IMG/VR virus record: IMGVR_UViG_3300002514_005018
Coordinates: 10,374 to 46,093 of that record
DNA: 35,720 bases
Direction: 5' to 3' (one strand)
From: a virus
The position numbers and the translations under genes were made by a program. The notes below the pieces were generated by a model that was not told the origin of the DNA, made no database searches, and was given only the letters and a program-made list of their open reading frames with translations. Shown one piece after another: positions 8,826 through 27,623 of this stretch. Position 1 is the first letter of the stretch, and every line of letters starts with the position of its first letter.

Positions 8826-10265
8826 ATGCCAGAAGCAGAAAACAGCACTAGCGAAAGCCAGAAGATTCTAGAAACGATGGCGACTCCAGATTTCACTAAT
8901 GAGCTTACCGCTCTAATGAAAATTCGCGCTCCAGTCGTTTTCCTTACATGTCGAGAAGAAAAACGAATGTTGAAATACCTACAGTATCTTGTTGTTACGA
9001 GAGGTTTTAGAGCTTCAACTTGGGATTGTTATACTGGAATGTCTAATCTATTAACGGGAGAATTAGACAAAACAGTTTCAGATGATGTTTTAGACCCAGA
9101 TATGGCTTTGCATTATATTATACAAGACGCAAAGTCAGATTCGCAGAAGTCAGATGGTTACGAATCTCAGAGTATTAATGGCAAGATCTATGTCATGTTA
9201 GATTTTTATAATTTTCTTGACAATCCAGACACAGAGCGTAGAATTAAGACTTTCGCTCAGATCGATTCCATGACTATGATTATTATTACTGGTCATTCTT
9301 TGTCAATCCCACCTGGTTTAAATAATCTTTTCAGCGTTTTAGATTTCCCATATCCTAATAAGAACGAAATTAAAGGTACTGTCAAATCTCTACTTAACGC
9401 TGTTGGCAAAGAGTCTGTCAAGTTCGAAAAATCTTTGATGAAACAGTTCAAAGATAATGAGCATGAGATCATCGGTTCTGTCAATGGGCTAACTTTGACT
9501 GAAGCTCAAAAGGCTTTGTCGAAGTCAGTTGTTGTCCACAGAGGATTTGATACTAACGCTATTCTAGGCGAAAAGAAACAATATATTCGTCAACGCGGAA
9601 CTTTAGAATTCTACGAACCAGATTTGACGATGGATGATGTCGGAGGTCTTGCTAATATGCGTTCATGGTTAGAGCGTAGAAAGGCAGTATTTGATCCTAA
9701 AGCAAGAGAATTTGGTCTTCCTGCTTTGAAAGGAATTCTTGCAGTTGGAGTCCCAGGTGGTGGTAAGTCTTTGATCGCTAAAGCATCTGCTGCTTTTTAT
9801 GGTATTCCTCTTTTGAAACTTGATTTTGGAACGCTATTCCGAAGTCACGTTGGAGAGTCGGAAGAAACAACTAGAGCCGCTATCCAGTTGGCAGAGGCTT
9901 TAGCTCCGTGCGTATCTTTTGAGACAGAGATAAAAACATGCGATGGATCTATAATTGTAGGAAAAGAGTTTAATCAAACAAATAATAAGTTTAATATATC
10001 CGTTGGAACAGATATAGCAGTATTAGATGATCCTATTGATATCCCATCATTTGATATGGAAAAAGATGAAATTGTTAATTCTAAACTGAAAGCGATCATA
10101 CGAAGAAAAGTTAGGACTGGAAAGAAAGTTTATAAAGTTACTTTATCGAACGGATCGACAATTAAGGTTTCTGAAGATCATAAATTTTTGGTTTTAAATA
10201 ATGATAAAAAAGAATGGAAAAAAATGAAGGATATCAGTGAAAAAGATAAAATTATAACTCTATAG
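8826..10265 (+). CDS. Ycf46-like AAA+ ATPase, N-terminal part fused to split-intein N half
   Basis: The first 361 residues (8826-9908) are the N-extein. They comprise an N-terminal regulatory domain, then LEFYEPD, DDVGG and Walker A GVPGGGKS near residue 309, followed by a VGESEE segment. The order and wording match the Ycf46-type AAA ATPases of cyanobacteria and plastids. Function there is poorly known; a remodelling or regulatory role is likely. After LAP the sequence turns into an intein N half (118 residues) ending in a stop. Walker B and the arginine finger are encoded separately at 11290-11874. The spliced protein would be 556 residues, joining LAP to CCLWIDEID. ATP hydrolysis should therefore depend on trans-splicing. 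AAAGG at 8815-8819 serves the ATG. Confidence 0.88.
   Translation: MPEAENSTSESQKILETMATPDFTNELTALMKIRAPVVFLTCREEKRMLKYLQYLVVTRGFRASTWDCYTGMSNLLTGELDKTVSDDVLDPDMALHYIIQDAKSDSQKSDGYESQSINGKIYVMLDFYNFLDNPDTERRIKTFAQIDSMTMIIITGHSLSIPPGLNNLFSVLDFPYPNKNEIKGTVKSLLNAVGKESVKFEKSLMKQFKDNEHEIIGSVNGLTLTEAQKALSKSVVVHRGFDTNAILGEKKQYIRQRGTLEFYEPDLTMDDVGGLANMRSWLERRKAVFDPKAREFGLPALKGILAVGVPGGGKSLIAKASAAFYGIPLLKLDFGTLFRSHVGESEETTRAAIQLAEALAPCVSFETEIKTCDGSIIVGKEFNQTNNKFNISVGTDIAVLDDPIDIPSFDMEKDEIVNSKLKAIIRRKVRTGKKVYKVTLSNGSTIKVSEDHKFLVLNNDKKEWKKMKDISEKDKIITL
9909..10262 (+). mobile_element. Split intein, N-terminal half (in AAA+ ATPase)
   Basis: 118 residues begin with cysteine after LAP. Block A is CVSFETEIKTCDG. 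Block B is seen as NGSTIKVSEDHKF, with the conserved histidine but serine where threonine is common. The fragment stops shortly after block B, exactly where natural split inteins break. Its last 20 or so residues are lysine-rich (KKEWKKMKD). The matching C half is at 11176-11289. Confidence 0.9.
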
Positions 10266-10290
10266 CGTTAGTATACGAGGAGGTAGAGTT

Positions 10291-11166
10291 GTGGTTAATA
10301 AGGTTTGTTTAAATTGCGGAGTAATTTTTAGAGTTGCGAATTATAGAAAAGATACGGCAAAGTATTGTAGTCGTTCATGTAGTTCTGCTCGAAGTAGAAC
10401 CTCTAAAGAATGTAAATTTTGCAAAGAGAAATTTGAAACATGGAAATCTACATTTGATAGAACCAAGTTTTGTTCAAAAAAATGTCAACTGGCATATAAT
10501 AAAGATAGAAGTTCGAAAATTATATGTTTGAATTGCAAGGATAGTTTTGTTGTTCCTTTTTTTAAAAGAAATAGTGCTAAATTCTGTTCTAAGCGATGTC
10601 AAAGAGAGTTCACTAACAGCGATACAAAGTTGAAATGTTTTGTTTGCGGTGAAAATTTTACAAGAAAAAAGTGGGCAACTATTAATAAGAAAAATGTACA
10701 TTACTGTTCTGTAGATTGTTATCAGAAAAGATCTCCATCAACTTACGAAACATGTAGTTGCGGTAATGTTTTTAAGGTTTATGCTAGTAGAAAAAAATAT
10801 TATAAAAATTTGTATTGTTCAGTAGAATGCCGTAATAAATATGGAATTATTGGAAGGCTAACTTCTAACATTAATTTTAACAAGCAGTATCAGAAATTTG
10901 TTCGAAGCGTTAGGCATTCGTCAAAATACTACGAGTGGAGAAAAAAATGTTTAGAAAGAGATAATTATAAATGCAATATTTGTCATGGAGATAGAGGTCT
11001 TACAGTTCATCATGGAATTAAGACAATGTATGACTTTGTTAAAGAACATGGATTTAACAAGAAAAAAATATATAATGATTGTATGTTTTTTGATGTCGAT
11101 AATGGTTCAACTTTATGTAGAAAATGCCATCTAAATAAGCATTCGAATAGAAATTTGAAAGATTAG
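10291..11166 (+). CDS. HNH homing endonuclease with five zinc-finger-like repeats
   Basis: A free-standing 291-residue gene lying between the two split-intein halves. Residues 6 to about 180 contain five repeats of the form C-x2-C (C-x-C in the last) followed by Y/F-C-S-x2-C, about 35 residues apart, likely zinc-binding and DNA-binding. The C-terminal HNH nuclease starts with CNICHGDRG, has VHHGIK, then asparagine and LCRKCHLNKH. It should cut an intein-less allele of the ATPase gene and so promote homing of the locus. Start GTG 10291 has a perfect AGGAGGT (10278-10284), the strongest ribosome site in the window. Cutting specificity is inferred only from position. Confidence 0.85.
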   Translation: MVNKVCLNCGVIFRVANYRKDTAKYCSRSCSSARSRTSKECKFCKEKFETWKSTFDRTKFCSKKCQLAYNKDRSSKIICLNCKDSFVVPFFKRNSAKFCSKRCQREFTNSDTKLKCFVCGENFTRKKWATINKKNVHYCSVDCYQKRSPSTYETCSCGNVFKVYASRKKYYKNLYCSVECRNKYGIIGRLTSNINFNKQYQKFVRSVRHSSKYYEWRKKCLERDNYKCNICHGDRGLTVHHGIKTMYDFVKEHGFNKKKIYNDCMFFDVDNGSTLCRKCHLNKHSNRNLKD

Positions 11167-11175
11167 GAGAAGAAA

Positions 11176-11289
11176 ATGAATGTAGCTGAAGTTGTAAAAG
11201 TTGAAGAAGTAAATGAAATTGAATATGTTTATGATCCTTGTTGTGAATCGCCTAACAATTATGTTTCAAATGGGATAATAAGTCATAAT
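11176..11289 (+). mobile_element. Split intein, C-terminal half (in AAA+ ATPase)
   Basis: 38 residues with block F (EYVYDPCCESPNNYV) and block G (NGIISHN) followed by cysteine. The penultimate histidine and terminal asparagine are canonical. The peptide is strongly acidic (seven acidic and one basic side chain by my count), opposite to the usual basic C half of DnaE split inteins. Confidence 0.9.
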
Positions 11290-11877
11290 TGTTGTTTGTG
11301 GATTGATGAAATCGACAAGGGGTTATCTGGTACTCAATCTAGCGGTTCGACCGATGGTGGAACGACTGATAGAGTTGTGAGTACATTCCTTACATGGATG
11401 CAAGAGAAGAAAAAAGACGTTTTTGTTGTCGCAACTGCCAACGAAATAGAAAAAATTCCAACTCCGTTTTTCAGGCGTTTTGATGAAATCTTTTTCGTTG
11501 ATTTTCCCAACGTAGATGAAAGGGAAGAGATAGCTTCTGTATTGATAAGAAGATATGGTAGGGTCGCTGCAAACTTCGATCTTAAGAAGATTGCGAAGGC
11601 ATCTGACGGTTGTAGTGGATCAGAGATTGAGAAGGCAATTCATATTGGATTGTTTGAGGCTTTTGCCGATAGTAGGAGAGAGCTAACAACTAAAGATATC
11701 GTAAACGCTTTCAAAACTTTTACTCCTCAGTACAAAATGCGTCCAGCTTATTTTGATACAATGACTGAGGTTGCTCACCAACGTGGTTTCGTTTTTGCAA
11801 ACAAGGCTCCTAAAATTAAACCACAAAAAGTACAGAAGGAAGAAGACGCAATCGGTATCATTTTGGATGAAAATTGA
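11176..11877 (+). CDS. Split-intein C half fused to Ycf46-like AAA+ ATPase C-terminal part
   Basis: The first 38 residues are the intein C half and the remaining 195 (11290-11874) are the C-extein. The extein opens with Walker B CCLWIDEIDKG. It continues with DGGTTDRVVSTFLTWMQEK, sensor-1-like VVATANE and the arginine-finger segment FFRRFDEIFFVDFP, then a C-terminal lid domain. Its own ribosome site (AGGAG near 11165) and ATG show independent translation, so this is not a decayed frame. Splicing would use cysteine 11290 as the +1 nucleophile. The stop overlaps the next start as TTGA. Confidence 0.88.
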   Translation: MNVAEVVKVEEVNEIEYVYDPCCESPNNYVSNGIISHNCCLWIDEIDKGLSGTQSSGSTDGGTTDRVVSTFLTWMQEKKKDVFVVATANEIEKIPTPFFRRFDEIFFVDFPNVDEREEIASVLIRRYGRVAANFDLKKIAKASDGCSGSEIEKAIHIGLFEAFADSRRELTTKDIVNAFKTFTPQYKMRPAYFDTMTEVAHQRGFVFANKAPKIKPQKVQKEEDAIGIILDEN

Positions 11878-18264: not shown

Positions 18265-18627
18265 ATGAGATATAAGAAGACACAGGTTGTACATCAGGTA
18301 GTAAGAGATGAAGAAATTGAAGACCTAGAGTCAATTAGAAAATTGCTCGAAAATATATGCTCTTCATATATAGACATTTCTTTAGGATATCAACAGCCTA
18401 ACGCTGATATAACAACTACATGGAGCAAAGTTCGTATAGATACTGTTGGAGGGGATGATGTAGACATAAAGATATTCGCAGGCAAATACATAACAAAAAC
18501 AACAATTAAAATAGATAGAATAAAATTTATTGAAATTGTGACTGACAGATTTGGTATACTAGCAAAGAAGTCAGAAGTAACTTCATATGACTTTTTAGAT
18601 TTAAGTGAAAATAAAAATGATAAGTAA
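18265..18627 (+). CDS. Hypothetical protein, 120 residues
   Basis: The ATG at 18265 lies three bases after the previous stop, suggesting re-initiation; no clear ribosome site is seen. The protein is charged with mixed helices and strands and has no recognised motif. Its last 11 bases overlap the DNA polymerase start at 18617. Confidence 0.6.
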   Translation: MRYKKTQVVHQVVRDEEIEDLESIRKLLENICSSYIDISLGYQQPNADITTTWSKVRIDTVGGDDVDIKIFAGKYITKTTIKIDRIKFIEIVTDRFGILAKKSEVTSYDFLDLSENKNDK

Positions 18628-21403
18628 TAAAAGTTTCGTACATCTTCATGTCCATAGTGACTATTCAGAATTCGACGGTCTTGCAAGCGTCAAAAGTCTT
18701 GTAATGGCTGCAAGAAAAGGCGGTTTCCCCGCCTTAGCTTTAACAGATCATGGAAATCTTGGTGGACTAATAAAGTTCATTCAACTCTGCGAAGCTACCA
18801 AAGATAAAAACGGAGAAGATATTCCATACGACACCATCAAGCCCTTGCTTGGCGGTGAGCTTTATATGTCTGCGAGTAGGTTTAATAAGAGTTCAGAAAC
18901 TCAACCGTCAGGACAAGGCGGTAATTTCCATCTTATTTTAATCGCTCAGAATTGGAAAGGATATCAGAACCTATGCTCTCTTTCTAATTTTGCTTATACA
19001 GAAGGTTTTTACTTCGCTCCGAGAATAGATTTTGAATTACTTGCCAAACATTCAGAAGGGCTAATTTGTTCGAGTGCATGTTTAAAGGGGATTGTAAATC
19101 AAAACCTATTATATGATAAATATGATGAGGCTAAAAAAGCAGCAATGATGTTCAAAGATATTTTTGGAGACAGATTCTTCCTTGAGGTTATGTATCATGG
19201 AATACCGGCCGAGCTAAAAATCGTTCCAGAGATTTTTAAATTAAGTAAAGAATTGGATATCCCTGTTATAGCTACAAACGATGTTCATTACGTTACTCAA
19301 GATCAAGCTCTATCTCAAGAAGTTCTTACTTGCATGTCAACAAGAACGTGTTTATCTAACCCCAAAAGGTTGAGACAACCATATTCAGAATTCTATCTAA
19401 AGTCTGCTGACAAAATGCATCAGATGTTTAAAAAGAATCCTAATTGTATTACGAATACAGTTTCTATTGCAAATATGGTAGATCATGAAGATATCAAGAA
19501 AAATCTTTTTGTTAAAAGGATGAGACTTCCAGAGTTTGAAACCCCAGATGGGTTTAACAGTCCTATGGAATATCTTATAGATTTGGCAGATAAAGGGATG
19601 AAAGATCTTGGATGGGATAAAAAACCAAAATACGTAAAAGCTTTGAAAACAGAATTAGAAGATGTTCAGGTCGCAATAGACAATAATGATTATGATTTTG
19701 CTACCTATTTTTTGATCGTTTGGGATATAGTTAATTTCGCAAGAAAGAGTGGCATTTTTATGGCACCTGGTAGAGGATCGGGATATGCTTCTGTTTTACT
19801 TAGATGTTTAAAAGTCTGTTATGGTCCTCCTCCGTTTAGTGAAGATGGAGAGGGGCTTGATTTGCTCTGGGAAAGATTCCTTGCTTTCAAAACAGATGAA
19901 AAGACAGGAAAAAGAGTTTTTGCTAGACCTGGTTTTCCAGATATCGATTCGGACTTTGACTTCTTCCGTAGGGGGGAAATATATGATTATATTATTGAAA
20001 AATATGGAAGAGAAAATGTAGAAAATATAGGGACTTATATAGGTCTCAAATTAAGAATGGCTCTAACAAGAACTATTAAAGCTCTTGATATAGCTCAAGC
20101 TTTTCATAAAGGAAAGCAAGAATTTGTTTCAGAGAATGTGGCAAAAGTCGAAGAGATTTTAGGTCAGCTTCCTAAACCTCAGGGGGCTTTTATGAAAGCA
20201 AAAGATGAGGATGGGAAAGAAGTATTCATTAAAACTATAGAAGACGCTATCAAATATTGTCCTGATTTTAAATATTACATGGACAAATATCCAGATATTG
20301 TGACTCATACTAAAAATGTTCAAGGTCTTTTATCTTCGTTCTCTAAACATCCTGCTGGTATCGTAATTGCGGACGTTCCTGTACATACACTTGCTCCAGT
20401 TCGTAGGTCTAAAAAGGATCAGTATGCTTCGCAGTATGATATGAATGATTTGGAATCTATGGGTCTTATTAAAATGGATATTTTGGCTACATCTATTTTA
20501 ACGGTAATAGATCGAACTGTCAAAATGGTGAAAAGTAATTATGGGATAGATATAGACATAGAGAATTTAAGTCTTGAAGATGAACCGACATTTGAGTTGT
20601 ATCGAAAGGGGAAACTAAAGGGTGTTTTCCAATGCGAAAATGGCGGCATGCAACAGACTATGAGAGATATAGGAGTGTCTTCTTTTAACGATGTTGTTGC
20701 TGCTATTGCTCTTTATCGTCCAGGTCCGATGGGAAGTATCCCAGAATATTGTGAGAGGAAGAAAGGTTTAACTCCTGTCTCTTATTTCCATCCAACTATT
20801 GAGCCTTTTGTGAAACCTCACCTTAAAAGAACTTATGGGATATTGACATACCAAGAACAGGTGATGCAGATATGTAACTCTTTAGCTGGCATTTCTGTCA
20901 CAGATGGTTATATATTGATTAAAGGTATTGGTAAAAAGAAAGAGCATCTGATTAGTCAATATAAAGTGCAGTTCATAGATGGTTGCGTTGGGAATGGCGT
21001 TCCAGCGAATATAGCAGAGCAGTACTGGGATACATTTATAATACCGTTTGCATCTTATGGATTTAACATGTGTCTAGACGGATCTATGAGGATTAAGAAT
21101 AAAAAAACAAATAAATTTTACACAATAGAAGAGATGGAAAAAAGATTTAGAGACAATAAAAATACATCTATAGTTCTTGACAGTTATAGAAACGGAGAAA
21201 TTATCGAAGATAAGTTAGTTGATGTTTTTAAAACCGGAGAAAAAGACATATATGAGGTCGAACTTGAGAATGGAACTGTTTTAAAATGCACTTTAGATCA
21301 CAAGTTTATTTGTAAAGATGGAAAGAAGTATTCTGTTCAAGAAATAATAGATAACGATTTAGAAATAATTTGTTTTGAAGAAGGAAATAAGCTTTTGTTG
21401 TAA
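18617..21403 (+). CDS. dnaE: DnaE-type DNA polymerase III alpha, N-terminal part fused to split-intein N half
   Basis: The first 818 residues are the polymerase N-extein. The PHP domain is at the N-terminus (HLHVHSDYSEFDG, LTDHGNLGG). Polymerase motifs follow: PGRGSGYAS near 384, the catalytic FPDIDSDFD near 441, LIKMDILA near 619, GVFQCENGGMQ near 668, and ALYRPGPMGSIPEY near 700. No inserted exonuclease domain is present, so it is DnaE- rather than PolC-type. After YGFNM the sequence becomes a 110-residue intein N half ending at TAA. The C-terminal 182 extein residues are encoded at 22700-23245. The spliced enzyme would be 1000 residues. ATG 18617 is preferred over GTG 18605 because the PHP motif starts soon after. 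Confidence 0.92.
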   Translation: MISNKSFVHLHVHSDYSEFDGLASVKSLVMAARKGGFPALALTDHGNLGGLIKFIQLCEATKDKNGEDIPYDTIKPLLGGELYMSASRFNKSSETQPSGQGGNFHLILIAQNWKGYQNLCSLSNFAYTEGFYFAPRIDFELLAKHSEGLICSSACLKGIVNQNLLYDKYDEAKKAAMMFKDIFGDRFFLEVMYHGIPAELKIVPEIFKLSKELDIPVIATNDVHYVTQDQALSQEVLTCMSTRTCLSNPKRLRQPYSEFYLKSADKMHQMFKKNPNCITNTVSIANMVDHEDIKKNLFVKRMRLPEFETPDGFNSPMEYLIDLADKGMKDLGWDKKPKYVKALKTELEDVQVAIDNNDYDFATYFLIVWDIVNFARKSGIFMAPGRGSGYASVLLRCLKVCYGPPPFSEDGEGLDLLWERFLAFKTDEKTGKRVFARPGFPDIDSDFDFFRRGEIYDYIIEKYGRENVENIGTYIGLKLRMALTRTIKALDIAQAFHKGKQEFVSENVAKVEEILGQLPKPQGAFMKAKDEDGKEVFIKTIEDAIKYCPDFKYYMDKYPDIVTHTKNVQGLLSSFSKHPAGIVIADVPVHTLAPVRRSKKDQYASQYDMNDLESMGLIKMDILATSILTVIDRTVKMVKSNYGIDIDIENLSLEDEPTFELYRKGKLKGVFQCENGGMQQTMRDIGVSSFNDVVAAIALYRPGPMGSIPEYCERKKGLTPVSYFHPTIEPFVKPHLKRTYGILTYQEQVMQICNSLAGISVTDGYILIKGIGKKKEHLISQYKVQFIDGCVGNGVPANIAEQYWDTFIIPFASYGFNMCLDGSMRIKNKKTNKFYTIEEMEKRFRDNKNTSIVLDSYRNGEIIEDKLVDVFKTGEKDIYEVELENGTVLKCTLDHKFICKDGKKYSVQEIIDNDLEIICFEEGNKLLL
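21071..21400 (+). mobile_element. Split intein, N-terminal half (in DNA polymerase)
   Basis: 110 residues start with cysteine after GFNM. Block A is CLDGSMRIKN and block B is seen as NGTVLKCTLDHKF with the conserved threonine and histidine. The fragment ends shortly after block B. Its last 23 residues are acidic (VQEIIDNDLEIICFEEGN). The matching C half is at 22565-22699. Confidence 0.92.
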
Positions 21404-21438
21404 TATATTAAATATAAGCATATTATAAGGAGTGTACT

Positions 21439-22593
21439 ATGACGAGAGTAGCTTGGAATAAAACGGTTTTAGATCATAGCAAGAAAACAATTCTTAGGAA
21501 AATGTTTTTCCAGAAGAAAACAGCAAGAGAAATCACAAAAGAGATTGGGATTTCTTACTCTGTATGTAATAGGTTATATAACAAATATAATTGGTATAAA
21601 AAGAGAGAAAGATATTATAGATATTTGTGTTATTTGGCATACAAACAGGGAATTTCAGTTGTTGATATATGTTGTATTGCTGGTTGTAATTATAGATATG
21701 CCAGTTATGTCAAACGCAAATATAAGGTTGCAACAAAAAGATTTGTTTATAACAAACGTATGACAAAAGAACTCGAAAAAAAAATAGTGTGTGATTATAT
21801 TGGAGGCATTCCTTCTAGAAAATTATCAAAAAAATATGGGTTTAAAACAGGAAAAACTGTTACTGATGTTTTACGAAAATACGGAATAAAGTTTCGTCAT
21901 CCCAGTAAAATAACTCATTACAATGAAAGTTGTTTTAAAAAAATAGATTCCCATGAAAAAGCTTATATTTTAGGATTTTTTCTAACAGACGGTTATGTGA
22001 TCAAAGATTATAAAGGTGTAGCAATTCAATTGACTATAAGTGACCGTTATATTCTTGAAAAAATGGTGAAAATATTTGGAATTTCTTCTACGGTTATAAA
22101 TATAGATTGTAGTAAAAAAAGAAAAGAATTTTCTAAATTAAGCAAGAAGGTTGCGAGGGAAAGAATGATATTCAATTCAAAAGATATGGCAAGGCTTTCT
22201 GTTTACAATCAACAGATATCGCATGATATGAGATCGTATGGATGTATTAAGGATAAGACTTATAAACTTGAATGTCCGTTAATCCCTAAAAAATATCATT
22301 CGTCTTTTTCTAGAGGCGTTTGGGACGGAGATGGAACTGTTGGAATTGCAAAGAATGGGAACATTTGGTGTCAATTTGTCACTGTTTCTGAAAAATTCGC
22401 ATATGGTTTTATTGATAGAATTAAAACTCCTTCTATTCTCGTTTTACAAAACCCGTGTAAAGATAACAAGTATACTGTGAGAGTTTCTGGTGGGAATAAG
22501 CGTACAATTAGGTTTCTTAGATGGATGTATAAAGATAAAGGAGATTTATATCTTAGGAGAAAGTATGAAAAAATCAAAGATCAAATCAATTAA
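21439..22593 (+). CDS. LAGLIDADG homing endonuclease between the DNA polymerase halves
   Basis: A free-standing 384-residue gene with AAGGAG just upstream of ATG 21439. The first 150 residues contain repeated helix-turn-helix-like segments (AREITKEIGISYSVCNRLY; a second around SRKLSKKYGF) that probably bind DNA. Two LAGLIDADG motifs follow: ILGFFLTDGYV near residue 176 and SRGVWDGDGTV near 291. It should cut intein-less dnaE alleles and spread the interrupted locus; the target is inferred from position. It overlaps the start of the polymerase C part by 29 bases. It is basic and rich in Y and K, unlike its neighbours, consistent with a selfish element. Confidence 0.88.
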   Translation: MTRVAWNKTVLDHSKKTILRKMFFQKKTAREITKEIGISYSVCNRLYNKYNWYKKRERYYRYLCYLAYKQGISVVDICCIAGCNYRYASYVKRKYKVATKRFVYNKRMTKELEKKIVCDYIGGIPSRKLSKKYGFKTGKTVTDVLRKYGIKFRHPSKITHYNESCFKKIDSHEKAYILGFFLTDGYVIKDYKGVAIQLTISDRYILEKMVKIFGISSTVINIDCSKKRKEFSKLSKKVARERMIFNSKDMARLSVYNQQISHDMRSYGCIKDKTYKLECPLIPKKYHSSFSRGVWDGDGTVGIAKNGNIWCQFVTVSEKFAYGFIDRIKTPSILVLQNPCKDNKYTVRVSGGNKRTIRFLRWMYKDKGDLYLRRKYEKIKDQIN

Positions 22594-22699
22594 AAAGATT
22601 GGTAAGAAAAAAACTTACAATTTAACGATGGAATCGGATCAACATAATTATGCTATTTATTCTGCTAGTGATGACGACAGTTTTGTTTTTAGTGCGAAT
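22565..22699 (+). mobile_element. Split intein, C-terminal half (in DNA polymerase)
   Basis: 45 residues, with nine lysines and no acidic residue in the first 20. Block F is represented by KKTYNLTMESDQHNYAIYS and block G by FVFSAN before serine. The penultimate residue is alanine where histidine is usual; other active split inteins tolerate serine there. The +1 nucleophile is serine 22700-22702. Confidence 0.9.
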
Positions 22700-23248
22700 A
22701 GTCATTCGTCCGCTTATGGTTTTACTTCTTGGATCAGTGCTTATCTGAAGGCTAATTATACGGCAGAGTTTATGGTCTGTTCTTTAGATGTGGCTAACGA
22801 AGATAAAAAGCATGATAAGATTATAGACCTTGAGCGAGATCTCAAAAAGATGAATATAAAACTTGCTGATAGAGATTTGAATAATTGCGATGTCAATTAT
22901 AAAATAGTAAGAAAAGAAGACAAGGCTAACGGAGTAGATCAGACGATAGTTTCACCTAGTTTAATGGTTAAAGGCGTTGGTCTTCCTACCGCACAAAATA
23001 TCGCAGATAATAAACCTTATAAATCTTTAAAAGAACTTGCTTCAAAAACTGATTTTAAATTAGTTAATAAAGATACAATAGCTTCGTTAGCTGAAGCTGA
23101 TTTCTTCAAAAATATGATAAAAGAACATTATAAGACAACGAATAAAAGACTCTCCAAAGGTAAACTTGTGGCTCAATTTATGGTCATTCGTAATGATTTG
23201 AAGAAGGCTGCTAAGAAGGGCGTGGAGTCTATGGACCTATTTGAATAG
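22565..23248 (+). CDS. dnaE: Split-intein C half fused to DNA polymerase III alpha C-terminal part
   Basis: Start ATG 22565 has AGGAG at 22555-22559. The first 45 residues are the intein C half. The extein begins SHSSAYGFTSWISAYLKANY, the direct continuation of the YGFNK-SHS motif of DnaE. It then covers the fingers/tHhH region with VKGVGLPTAQNI and ends in SMDLFE. That end resembles the beta-clamp-binding motif (QxxLxLF-type), so the spliced polymerase may bind a host or phage clamp; no clamp gene is in this window. The in-frame region upstream of 22565 belongs to the overlapping endonuclease gene. Confidence 0.9.
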   Translation: MKKSKIKSIKKIGKKKTYNLTMESDQHNYAIYSASDDDSFVFSANSHSSAYGFTSWISAYLKANYTAEFMVCSLDVANEDKKHDKIIDLERDLKKMNIKLADRDLNNCDVNYKIVRKEDKANGVDQTIVSPSLMVKGVGLPTAQNIADNKPYKSLKELASKTDFKLVNKDTIASLAEADFFKNMIKEHYKTTNKRLSKGKLVAQFMVIRNDLKKAAKKGVESMDLFE

Positions 23249-26390: not shown

Positions 26391-27623
26391 ATGGCAAAAA
26401 AAAATAATAGTGATGTAATAGTTGACAATTTAAAAGGTTTTATCAGAAAAGGTGCTGCTACAACTCCAGTAGGCTATGTCCCAACTGGGCATTTCAGTTT
26501 AGACTTTGCTATCAATTATGGCGAACTGCCAGAGAAAATAGATCTATCAACGTTAAAGGGATATGATCCTTCTAATGCTCTTGGACTTCCTCTCGGTAAG
26601 TTAGTTATGTTGTATGGCGAAGAGGGTGGTGGCAAATCTTCTTTAGCTTATAGAATATCTGGTTTTGCTCAGAAATTGGGCTATCCAGTTGCTTGGCTTG
26701 ATACGGAACATAGTTTCGCAGAGGGTCTTGCTATAATCAATGGCGTAGATATAGATAATATTTATTATTCTACTATGTCTAATCCAGGTGACCCTGATAA
26801 AGTTTATTATGCAGAAGATGTTTTTGATGCAATTATTGAATTGATAAAATCTGGCGTTAAAGTTGTTGTTCTTGATTCTGTTGCGAATCTTGTTACTAGA
26901 GAACGTGGAGAAGCTACAGCGGATAAGATAGTTATTGGCAAGCTTGCAAGATTGATGAGCGAGAATTTAGGAAAGCTTGTTTCTTACGCTGATAAACATG
27001 GAGCTTTGTTGGTTTTCATTAATCAGCTTAGGTTTAAAATAGGACAGAAGTTCGGCAATCCGGAAACTACACCAGGAGGTATGAGTCTTAAACATAATGC
27101 ATCGTTAATCATAAAGATTACCAAGAAAAAAAGTAAAGAAGCTCTCATAGAAATTCCTGGTGAAGATGGCAAGATGAAAATTATTGGCAGAAAGTCTTAC
27201 ATGAGACTTGAGAAGAACCGATTCGCTAAACCTTGTGAGGATAGCGTAGAAGTTCCTGTCTATTATGTAGCTCACTTTCCCAATATTGAAGAACTTATGT
27301 TTGAAGCAGGTCGTCAATTAAAGGTTATCTCTGTACGTAAGGGGATCTTTAAATGGGCAGATAGCGATGGACAGAAGCATGAAGCAGAAGGCAAAGCTAA
27401 TTTTACTGCATACATAAAATACAATGAATTGCAGTATTCTCTCGGTAAAGATCTTATAACTGCCGCAGAGGAAAATACTACAATATTGCCTCCTGAAATC
27501 AGCAAGTGGATAAATGACTACGAGTCAACGAAGAAAAAAGAAAGTAAAATAGATGAGAAACGAAGCACCGAGAATAAGACTAGCGGAACTAGAAAGGCAA
27601 AAGGTAAAAAAACTGGCGATTGA
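26391..27623 (+). CDS. recA: RecA-family recombinase
   Basis: A 410-residue recombinase. GEEGGGKSS near residue 76 is Walker A, VVVLDSVANL near 158 is Walker B, and INQLRFKIGQKFGNPETTPGG near 210-230 is the L2/ATP-cap region typical of RecA. It should form filaments on single-stranded DNA and drive strand exchange for repair and recombination-dependent replication. The C-terminal 40 residues are lysine-rich, unlike the acidic tail of E. coli RecA. The core is closer to bacterial RecA than to T4 UvsX. GGAG lies six bases before ATG 26391. The last 71 bases overlap the primase gene. Confidence 0.93.
   Translation: MAKKNNSDVIVDNLKGFIRKGAATTPVGYVPTGHFSLDFAINYGELPEKIDLSTLKGYDPSNALGLPLGKLVMLYGEEGGGKSSLAYRISGFAQKLGYPVAWLDTEHSFAEGLAIINGVDIDNIYYSTMSNPGDPDKVYYAEDVFDAIIELIKSGVKVVVLDSVANLVTRERGEATADKIVIGKLARLMSENLGKLVSYADKHGALLVFINQLRFKIGQKFGNPETTPGGMSLKHNASLIIKITKKKSKEALIEIPGEDGKMKIIGRKSYMRLEKNRFAKPCEDSVEVPVYYVAHFPNIEELMFEAGRQLKVISVRKGIFKWADSDGQKHEAEGKANFTAYIKYNELQYSLGKDLITAAEENTTILPPEISKWINDYESTKKKESKIDEKRSTENKTSGTRKAKGKKTGD

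Follow-up and report, generated by a model that had tools for sequence, protein, structure and literature searches.

In phages, genes of DNA metabolism are known to occur as 'fractured genes', in which a split intein interrupts the gene and a free-standing endonuclease gene lies between the intein halves (Dassa et al. 2009, Nucleic Acids Research 37:2560 (NAR), as cited in PMC10448857, PMC6892783, and PMC6801210). PMC10448857 treats free-standing endonuclease genes, collaborative homing, and genes in pieces, and in PMC6892783 the PolB of the jumbo phage Pseudomonas phage MIJ3 is reported to have a split intein together with an HNH endonuclease gene. The subject here is dnaE, the gene of DNA polymerase III alpha, in a stretch of 35,720 nucleotides called the window, which is part of the 46,093-base IMG/VR virus record IMGVR_UViG_3300002514_005018. 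We hold it very likely that this dnaE is fractured by a split intein at the fingers motif YGFN(K)|SHS, with a mobile helix-turn-helix (HTH) LAGLIDADG gene between the intein halves, and that the arrangement works by trans-splicing and homing. Half of the 26 published fractured loci reportedly carry Vsr-like enzymes. The origin of split inteins is an old question, and this dnaE junction offers natural before and after forms.

The locus consists of three open reading frames (ORFs) on the + strand: two that hold the pieces of dnaE and, between them, the LAGLIDADG gene. As a preliminary description of the window had it, this gene is free-standing and sits at the split point (LAGLIDADG_3, 5.9e-11). 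Its frame differs from that of the intein N half (IN), which is followed by a stop, and it has its own start and its own ribosome-binding sequence; 35 bases separate the IN stop from the endonuclease start. The features are as follows, where IC is the intein C half and L002, L023, and L251 are contigs of other phages.

18617..21403, +: dnaE N part, 928 amino acids (Pfam PHP, DNA_pol3_alpha, and DNA_pol3_finger; colinear with L002)
18617-21070, +: N-extein, 818 amino acids, part of the dnaE N part
21071..21400, +: IN, 110 amino acids (58% identity to the contiguous intein of L251, 46% to that of L023)
21071-21073, +: Cys1 of IN (from the sequence)
21290-21301, +: block B TLDH of IN (from the sequence)
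21427..21432, +: AAGGAG, likely ribosome-binding sequence for the endonuclease gene (from the sequence)
21439..22593, +: free-standing HTH and LAGLIDADG homing endonuclease gene, 384 amino acids (LAGLIDADG_3; AlphaFold2 model)
21964..21993, +: LAGLIDADG motif 1, YILGFFLTDG, acidic residue D184 (invariant in 30 relatives)
22306..22335, +: LAGLIDADG motif 2, FSRGVWDGDG, acidic residues D296/D298 (invariant in 30 relatives)
22555..22559, +: AGGAG, likely ribosome-binding sequence for the dnaE C part, within the endonuclease gene (from the sequence)
22565..22593, +: 29-base overlap read in two frames, as the endonuclease C-terminus RKYEKIKDQIN* and the IC start MKKSKIKSIK
22565..22699, +: IC, 45 amino acids (56-59% identity to L251 and L023)
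22697-22699, +: terminal Asn of IC (next residue Ser+1)
22565..23248, +: dnaE C part, 227 amino acids, made up of IC and C-extein (HHH_6 1.8e-8; 67% identity to L002)
22700-23245, +: C-extein, 182 amino acids

The dnaE N part matches PHP (2e-45), DNA_pol3_alpha (5e-44), and DNA_pol3_finger (5e-49), and the junction reads FASYGFNM|C...SAN|SHSSAYGF, inside the strongly conserved fingers motif YGFNxxH. When the exteins are joined they give 1000 amino acids, colinear with and 72% identical to the unbroken 998-amino-acid DnaE of the closest relative, L002, and the N- and C-extein are conserved to L002 about equally. The preliminary description had cut dnaE after YGFNM and resumed it at SHSSAYGF, with intein halves of 110 and 45 residues, and had proposed looking for relatives with an uninterrupted dnaE; its coordinates and lengths are correct, and L002 is such a relative. 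The extein tree pairs the window with L002 and L251 with L004, each at 100% bootstrap; L002 and L004 have no intein here, and this patchy distribution of the intein fits a mobile element. Elsewhere in the gene, dnaE is also found as two separate genes without an intein in L003-L008, L023, L040, and L251; that break, at about residue 428, lies just 5' of the catalytic PDID motif, and in some relatives unrelated genes lie between the two pieces.

What is found in the window is what a fractured gene consists of: a colinear enzyme in two ORFs, intein halves with splicing motifs, and a separate endonuclease gene between them. The splicing features are Cys1, TLDH, block F, the terminal Asn, and Ser+1; the Pfam Intein_splicing match of IN is weak (1.9e-4, below the curated cut-off). 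The 297-kb contig L251 has a contiguous 149-residue intein at exactly the window's codon junction with 57-60% identity, and the contiguous mini-intein of L023 lies two codons downstream of the window site (46% identity to IN and 59% to IC). Both are mini-inteins encoded in a single ORF and lack an endonuclease, and the intein tree groups them with the window at 100/100. The AlphaFold2 model of the L251 intein, with a predicted local distance difference test score (pLDDT) of 91, matches the NpuDnaE intein with a template modelling (TM) score of 0.84, and has the HINT fold. Because a related contiguous intein lies at the same junction and its model has this fold, the intein assignment goes beyond chance; going by homology to L251, IN and IC of the window are the halves of a HINT-fold intein. 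Bacterial and archaeal genome contigs scanned for the window intein gave no relative, and a search of named phages gave weak terminase and reductase matches only. The most economical reading of the intact residues is that DnaE is probably rejoined by protein trans-splicing.

The endonuclease retains the double-LAGLIDADG fold, an acidic residue in each motif, and N-terminal HTH units. Its AlphaFold2 model (pLDDT 79) matches PI-PfuI (Z 18.6) and I-Tsp061I (Z 17.1), and since intein and intron nucleases score alike, with PI-PfuI and TliVMA among the best matches, the fold search does not discriminate between the two. A hidden Markov model (HMM) of stand-alone-type enzymes, built without the window's, gives it 202 bits, and an HMM of 10 intein nucleases gives it 32 bits. 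Most of the relatives ranked nearest in the searches are stand-alone ORFs, about 255-400 residues long and with HTH units, and intein parts surround the gene at 0 of the ~108 loci with relatives. These relatives came from alignment scans; a scan of viral contigs with the window endonuclease as a single sequence gave none. The closest enzymes in the endonuclease tree (L110, L116, and L121) break a RecA-like ATPase gene, with no intein coding, and in the sister phages L002 and L005 a related endonuclease gene lies on the opposite strand, a short way upstream of dnaE. In that tree 85 stand-alone-type enzymes, the window's included, are separated from the 10 intein nucleases with a Shimodaira-Hasegawa-like approximate likelihood ratio (SH-aLRT) of 95. 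The HMM scores and the surroundings of the relatives make a stand-alone or intron-type lineage likely for the endonuclease. In other phages, HTH-LAGLIDADG genes break DnaE-type polymerase genes at conserved motifs (L083, L085, L086, and L029), and they probably lie within group I introns; Rfam reports no group I intron in L083-L089.

A scan with IN returned 49 loci, nearly all of them dnaE and most broken at YGFNK|SHS. Their states were classified by hand, and because the loci were collected by similarity to IN, the counts are not frequencies. Gene order, motifs, insertion site, homology, and the empty and contiguous alleles in relatives are shown by the sequences. Besides the window there are 24 further distinct split loci at YGFNK|SHS in phage contigs. 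Vsr/DUF559-like ORFs, whose Pfam matches are weak or marginal, are present in 21 of the 24 (9 of the 'IEVDGDYxHSNP' type and 12 of the 'IEFDGPxHF' type), and the other three have no intact endonuclease (L284:6151-6522, L280:6208-6443, and L265:6190-6408). L284 retains only a 61-residue C-terminal endonuclease remnant, which suggests that split inteins outlive their endonuclease. For L282 no intein C half was located in the locus.

Eight loci are contiguous at the junction: one carries an HNH endonuclease (L291), and two carry a Vsr-like endonuclease ORF in the alternate frame of an unbroken intein (L275:6188-7210 and L279:6251-7216, 341 and 322 codons). In these two, synonymous shuffling of the endonuclease codons predicts about 18 stops in the intein frame, and 0 are seen (0 of 20,000 shuffles), so both frames appear to be selected; in this way an endonuclease may be able to enter an intein and leave it unsplit. 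Among the papers searched, none joins intein, homing endonuclease, and alternative reading frame. The window is the sole LAGLIDADG case among the loci found at the junction. L028 carries, a few residues upstream of the junction, a contiguous intein that bears HNH. A DnaE-like gene of L085 (Dulem virus 36) is broken at YGFNKGH|S by a related LAGLIDADG gene, with no intein coding; by eye this appears to be a group I intron, and Rfam reports none there. The dnaE junction is thus a target for several kinds of element. Its forms are empty in L002 and L004, contiguous in L251, split with LAGLIDADG in the window, and split with a Vsr-like or decayed endonuclease in others, and they make two ideas testable: that endonuclease invasion creates split inteins, and that the split form outlives the endonuclease.

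The inteins at this site vary at their termini. Nearly all lack the penultimate His, with Ser, Arg, or Ala instead, and some start with Thr or Ser in place of Cys (L275:5974, L262:4544, and L268:5905).

Other ways of obtaining a working polymerase, or none, have to be set against trans-splicing. The two pieces might form a non-covalent two-subunit enzyme without splicing, as dnaE does occur as two intein-less genes broken near residue 428, and split functional reductases are known (Friedrich 2007, as cited in PMC10448857). We consider this quite improbable, given that both intein halves retain catalytic residues and match contiguous inteins, and that the break falls within such a strongly conserved motif. 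The likely introns around the related enzymes of L085 and L086 raise the idea of joining at the RNA level, by a group I intron with an endonuclease ORF, or of ribosomal bypassing. Here, however, the gene is flanked by intein halves, an intron core does not fit with a 35-base spacer on one side and a 29-base overlap on the other, and Rfam has no match in the window, though Rfam also misses the probable L085 and L086 introns; we give this explanation next to no credence. Misassembly or a decaying, non-functional polymerase would be conceivable for one metagenomic contig that has no reads for inspection. It is highly improbable in view of three open ORFs with catalytic motifs and ribosome-binding sequences, exteins about equally conserved, and the same layout with other endonucleases in independent contigs.

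Where the endonuclease came from is a separate matter. The preliminary description saw in it an intermediate between contiguous and split inteins, and a contiguous LAGLIDADG intein could indeed have broken up, its own nuclease domain becoming a separate gene: LAGLIDADG enzymes are the usual intein nucleases, and PI-PfuI and TliVMA are among the top fold matches. The gap between 202 and 32 bits, the HTH units typical of stand-alone enzymes, the lack of any intein around its ~108 relatives, the nuclease-free inteins of L251 and L023, and the unrelated Vsr-like genes in other split inteins at the site all speak against this descent, and we think it unlikely. The idea of an intein nuclease in transit is thus not borne out, and the weaker sense, that the window is one state in the series at the dnaE site, stands. 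A free-standing gene that invaded a mini-intein or replaced an endonuclease there is the more likely source. More specifically, the split intein may have been born independently, when a mini-intein like those of L251 and L023 was broken by a LAGLIDADG gene of the stand-alone or intron lineage, as happened with unrelated Vsr-like genes at this dnaE junction in other phages; we put this at somewhat under an even chance.

Several observations weigh against the reading of a spliced, mobile, invaded intein. In the window, Ala rather than His precedes the terminal Asn (L251 and L023 have Arg there, and most other inteins at the site have Ser), so the splicing competence of the window intein is not certain. 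The approximately unbiased (AU) test does not reject a grouping of the window endonuclease with intein enzymes (p 0.587), and this counts in favour of intein-nuclease descent. The endonuclease tree separates the two groups, but in view of this test it is not taken as proof. The intein has diverged about as much as the exteins have, which gives no indication of a recent transfer. In L251 a Met stands at the very position where the window's C part starts, and this would also fit re-fusion after endonuclease loss. The window's ancestor may have been contiguous until the LAGLIDADG gene broke it, or it may already have been split and have exchanged one endonuclease for another, or L251 may have re-fused.

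For the fractured dnaE with a mobile endonuclease gene, we infer splicing, cleavage specificity, homing, and the direction of the split as follows. A stand-alone or intron-type endonuclease would have entered the loop of an L251- or L023-like mini-intein, or displaced an earlier endonuclease there. The three ORFs would be translated separately off one strand, IN and IC of the polymerase pieces would associate, and Cys1 with the terminal Asn and Ser+1 would perform protein trans-splicing to yield full-length DnaE. The endonuclease would cut dnaE alleles without the insert, and repair would then copy IN, endonuclease, and IC jointly into co-infecting phages. If the invasion history is true, a single dnaE codon junction preserves a series of states (empty, contiguous, contiguous with an endonuclease in the other frame as in L275 and L279, split with an intact endonuclease, and split with a decayed endonuclease as in L284), and split inteins arise repeatedly through endonuclease invasion. 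The window's intein halves are also candidate new trans-splicing tools.

Further inteins lie nearby and in related phages. The dnaE intein is the second split intein of the window, as previously described; the first is in an AAA ATPase (8826-11877), fractured with an HNH-like ORF (10291-11166) between the halves. In the sister phage L002 (L246) a different split intein, whose two ORFs overlap, breaks the same ATPase at another place, the Walker A motif. Another dnaE split intein occurs at ANFG|CHAAG, near residue 600 (L006:8000-10478, L040:7678-12469, and L251:2972-6978), with no endonuclease in L006 and a C2H2/nuclease-like ORF between the halves in L040 and L251. A contiguous LAGLIDADG intein, at YGVL|CYQEQ, is present in L040 as well. 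A RecA-like gene in L002 (11111-13450) contains a contiguous intein after KIGIMFG, and its window homologue (26391-27623) has none.

Compared with known systems, the window shares with the fractured genes of Dassa et al. a phage gene of DNA metabolism, a split intein, and a free-standing endonuclease gene between the halves, and differs in that the gene is dnaE, broken at YGFNK|SHS, and the enzyme is of the HTH-LAGLIDADG kind. MIJ3 likewise has a phage DNA polymerase with a split intein and, between the intein halves, a free-standing homing endonuclease gene; the pair is PolB and HNH there, DnaE and LAGLIDADG here. The dnaE inteins of contigs L253-L296 are homologous, lie at the same junction, and are mostly split with an endonuclease between, and they form separate intein clades. 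The cyanobacterial split DnaE inteins (Npu and Ssp DnaE) are inserted a few residues upstream (Y|CFNKSH), in gene halves that lie far apart, and are not known to have an endonuclease. They have in common with the window a split intein in DnaE and, by way of the L251 model, a likeness of fold, whereas the window site is YGFNM|SHS and its halves are adjacent. The stand-alone and intron HTH-LAGLIDADG_3 enzymes of phages, and the I-Tsp061I fold, have the domain order, conserved motifs, and fold of the window's endonuclease, but they are found in introns or between genes and the window's lies between intein halves. The window is a further case of the known fractured-gene arrangement, and its distinctive feature is that a LAGLIDADG enzyme occupies a dnaE site where otherwise Vsr-like enzymes are found.

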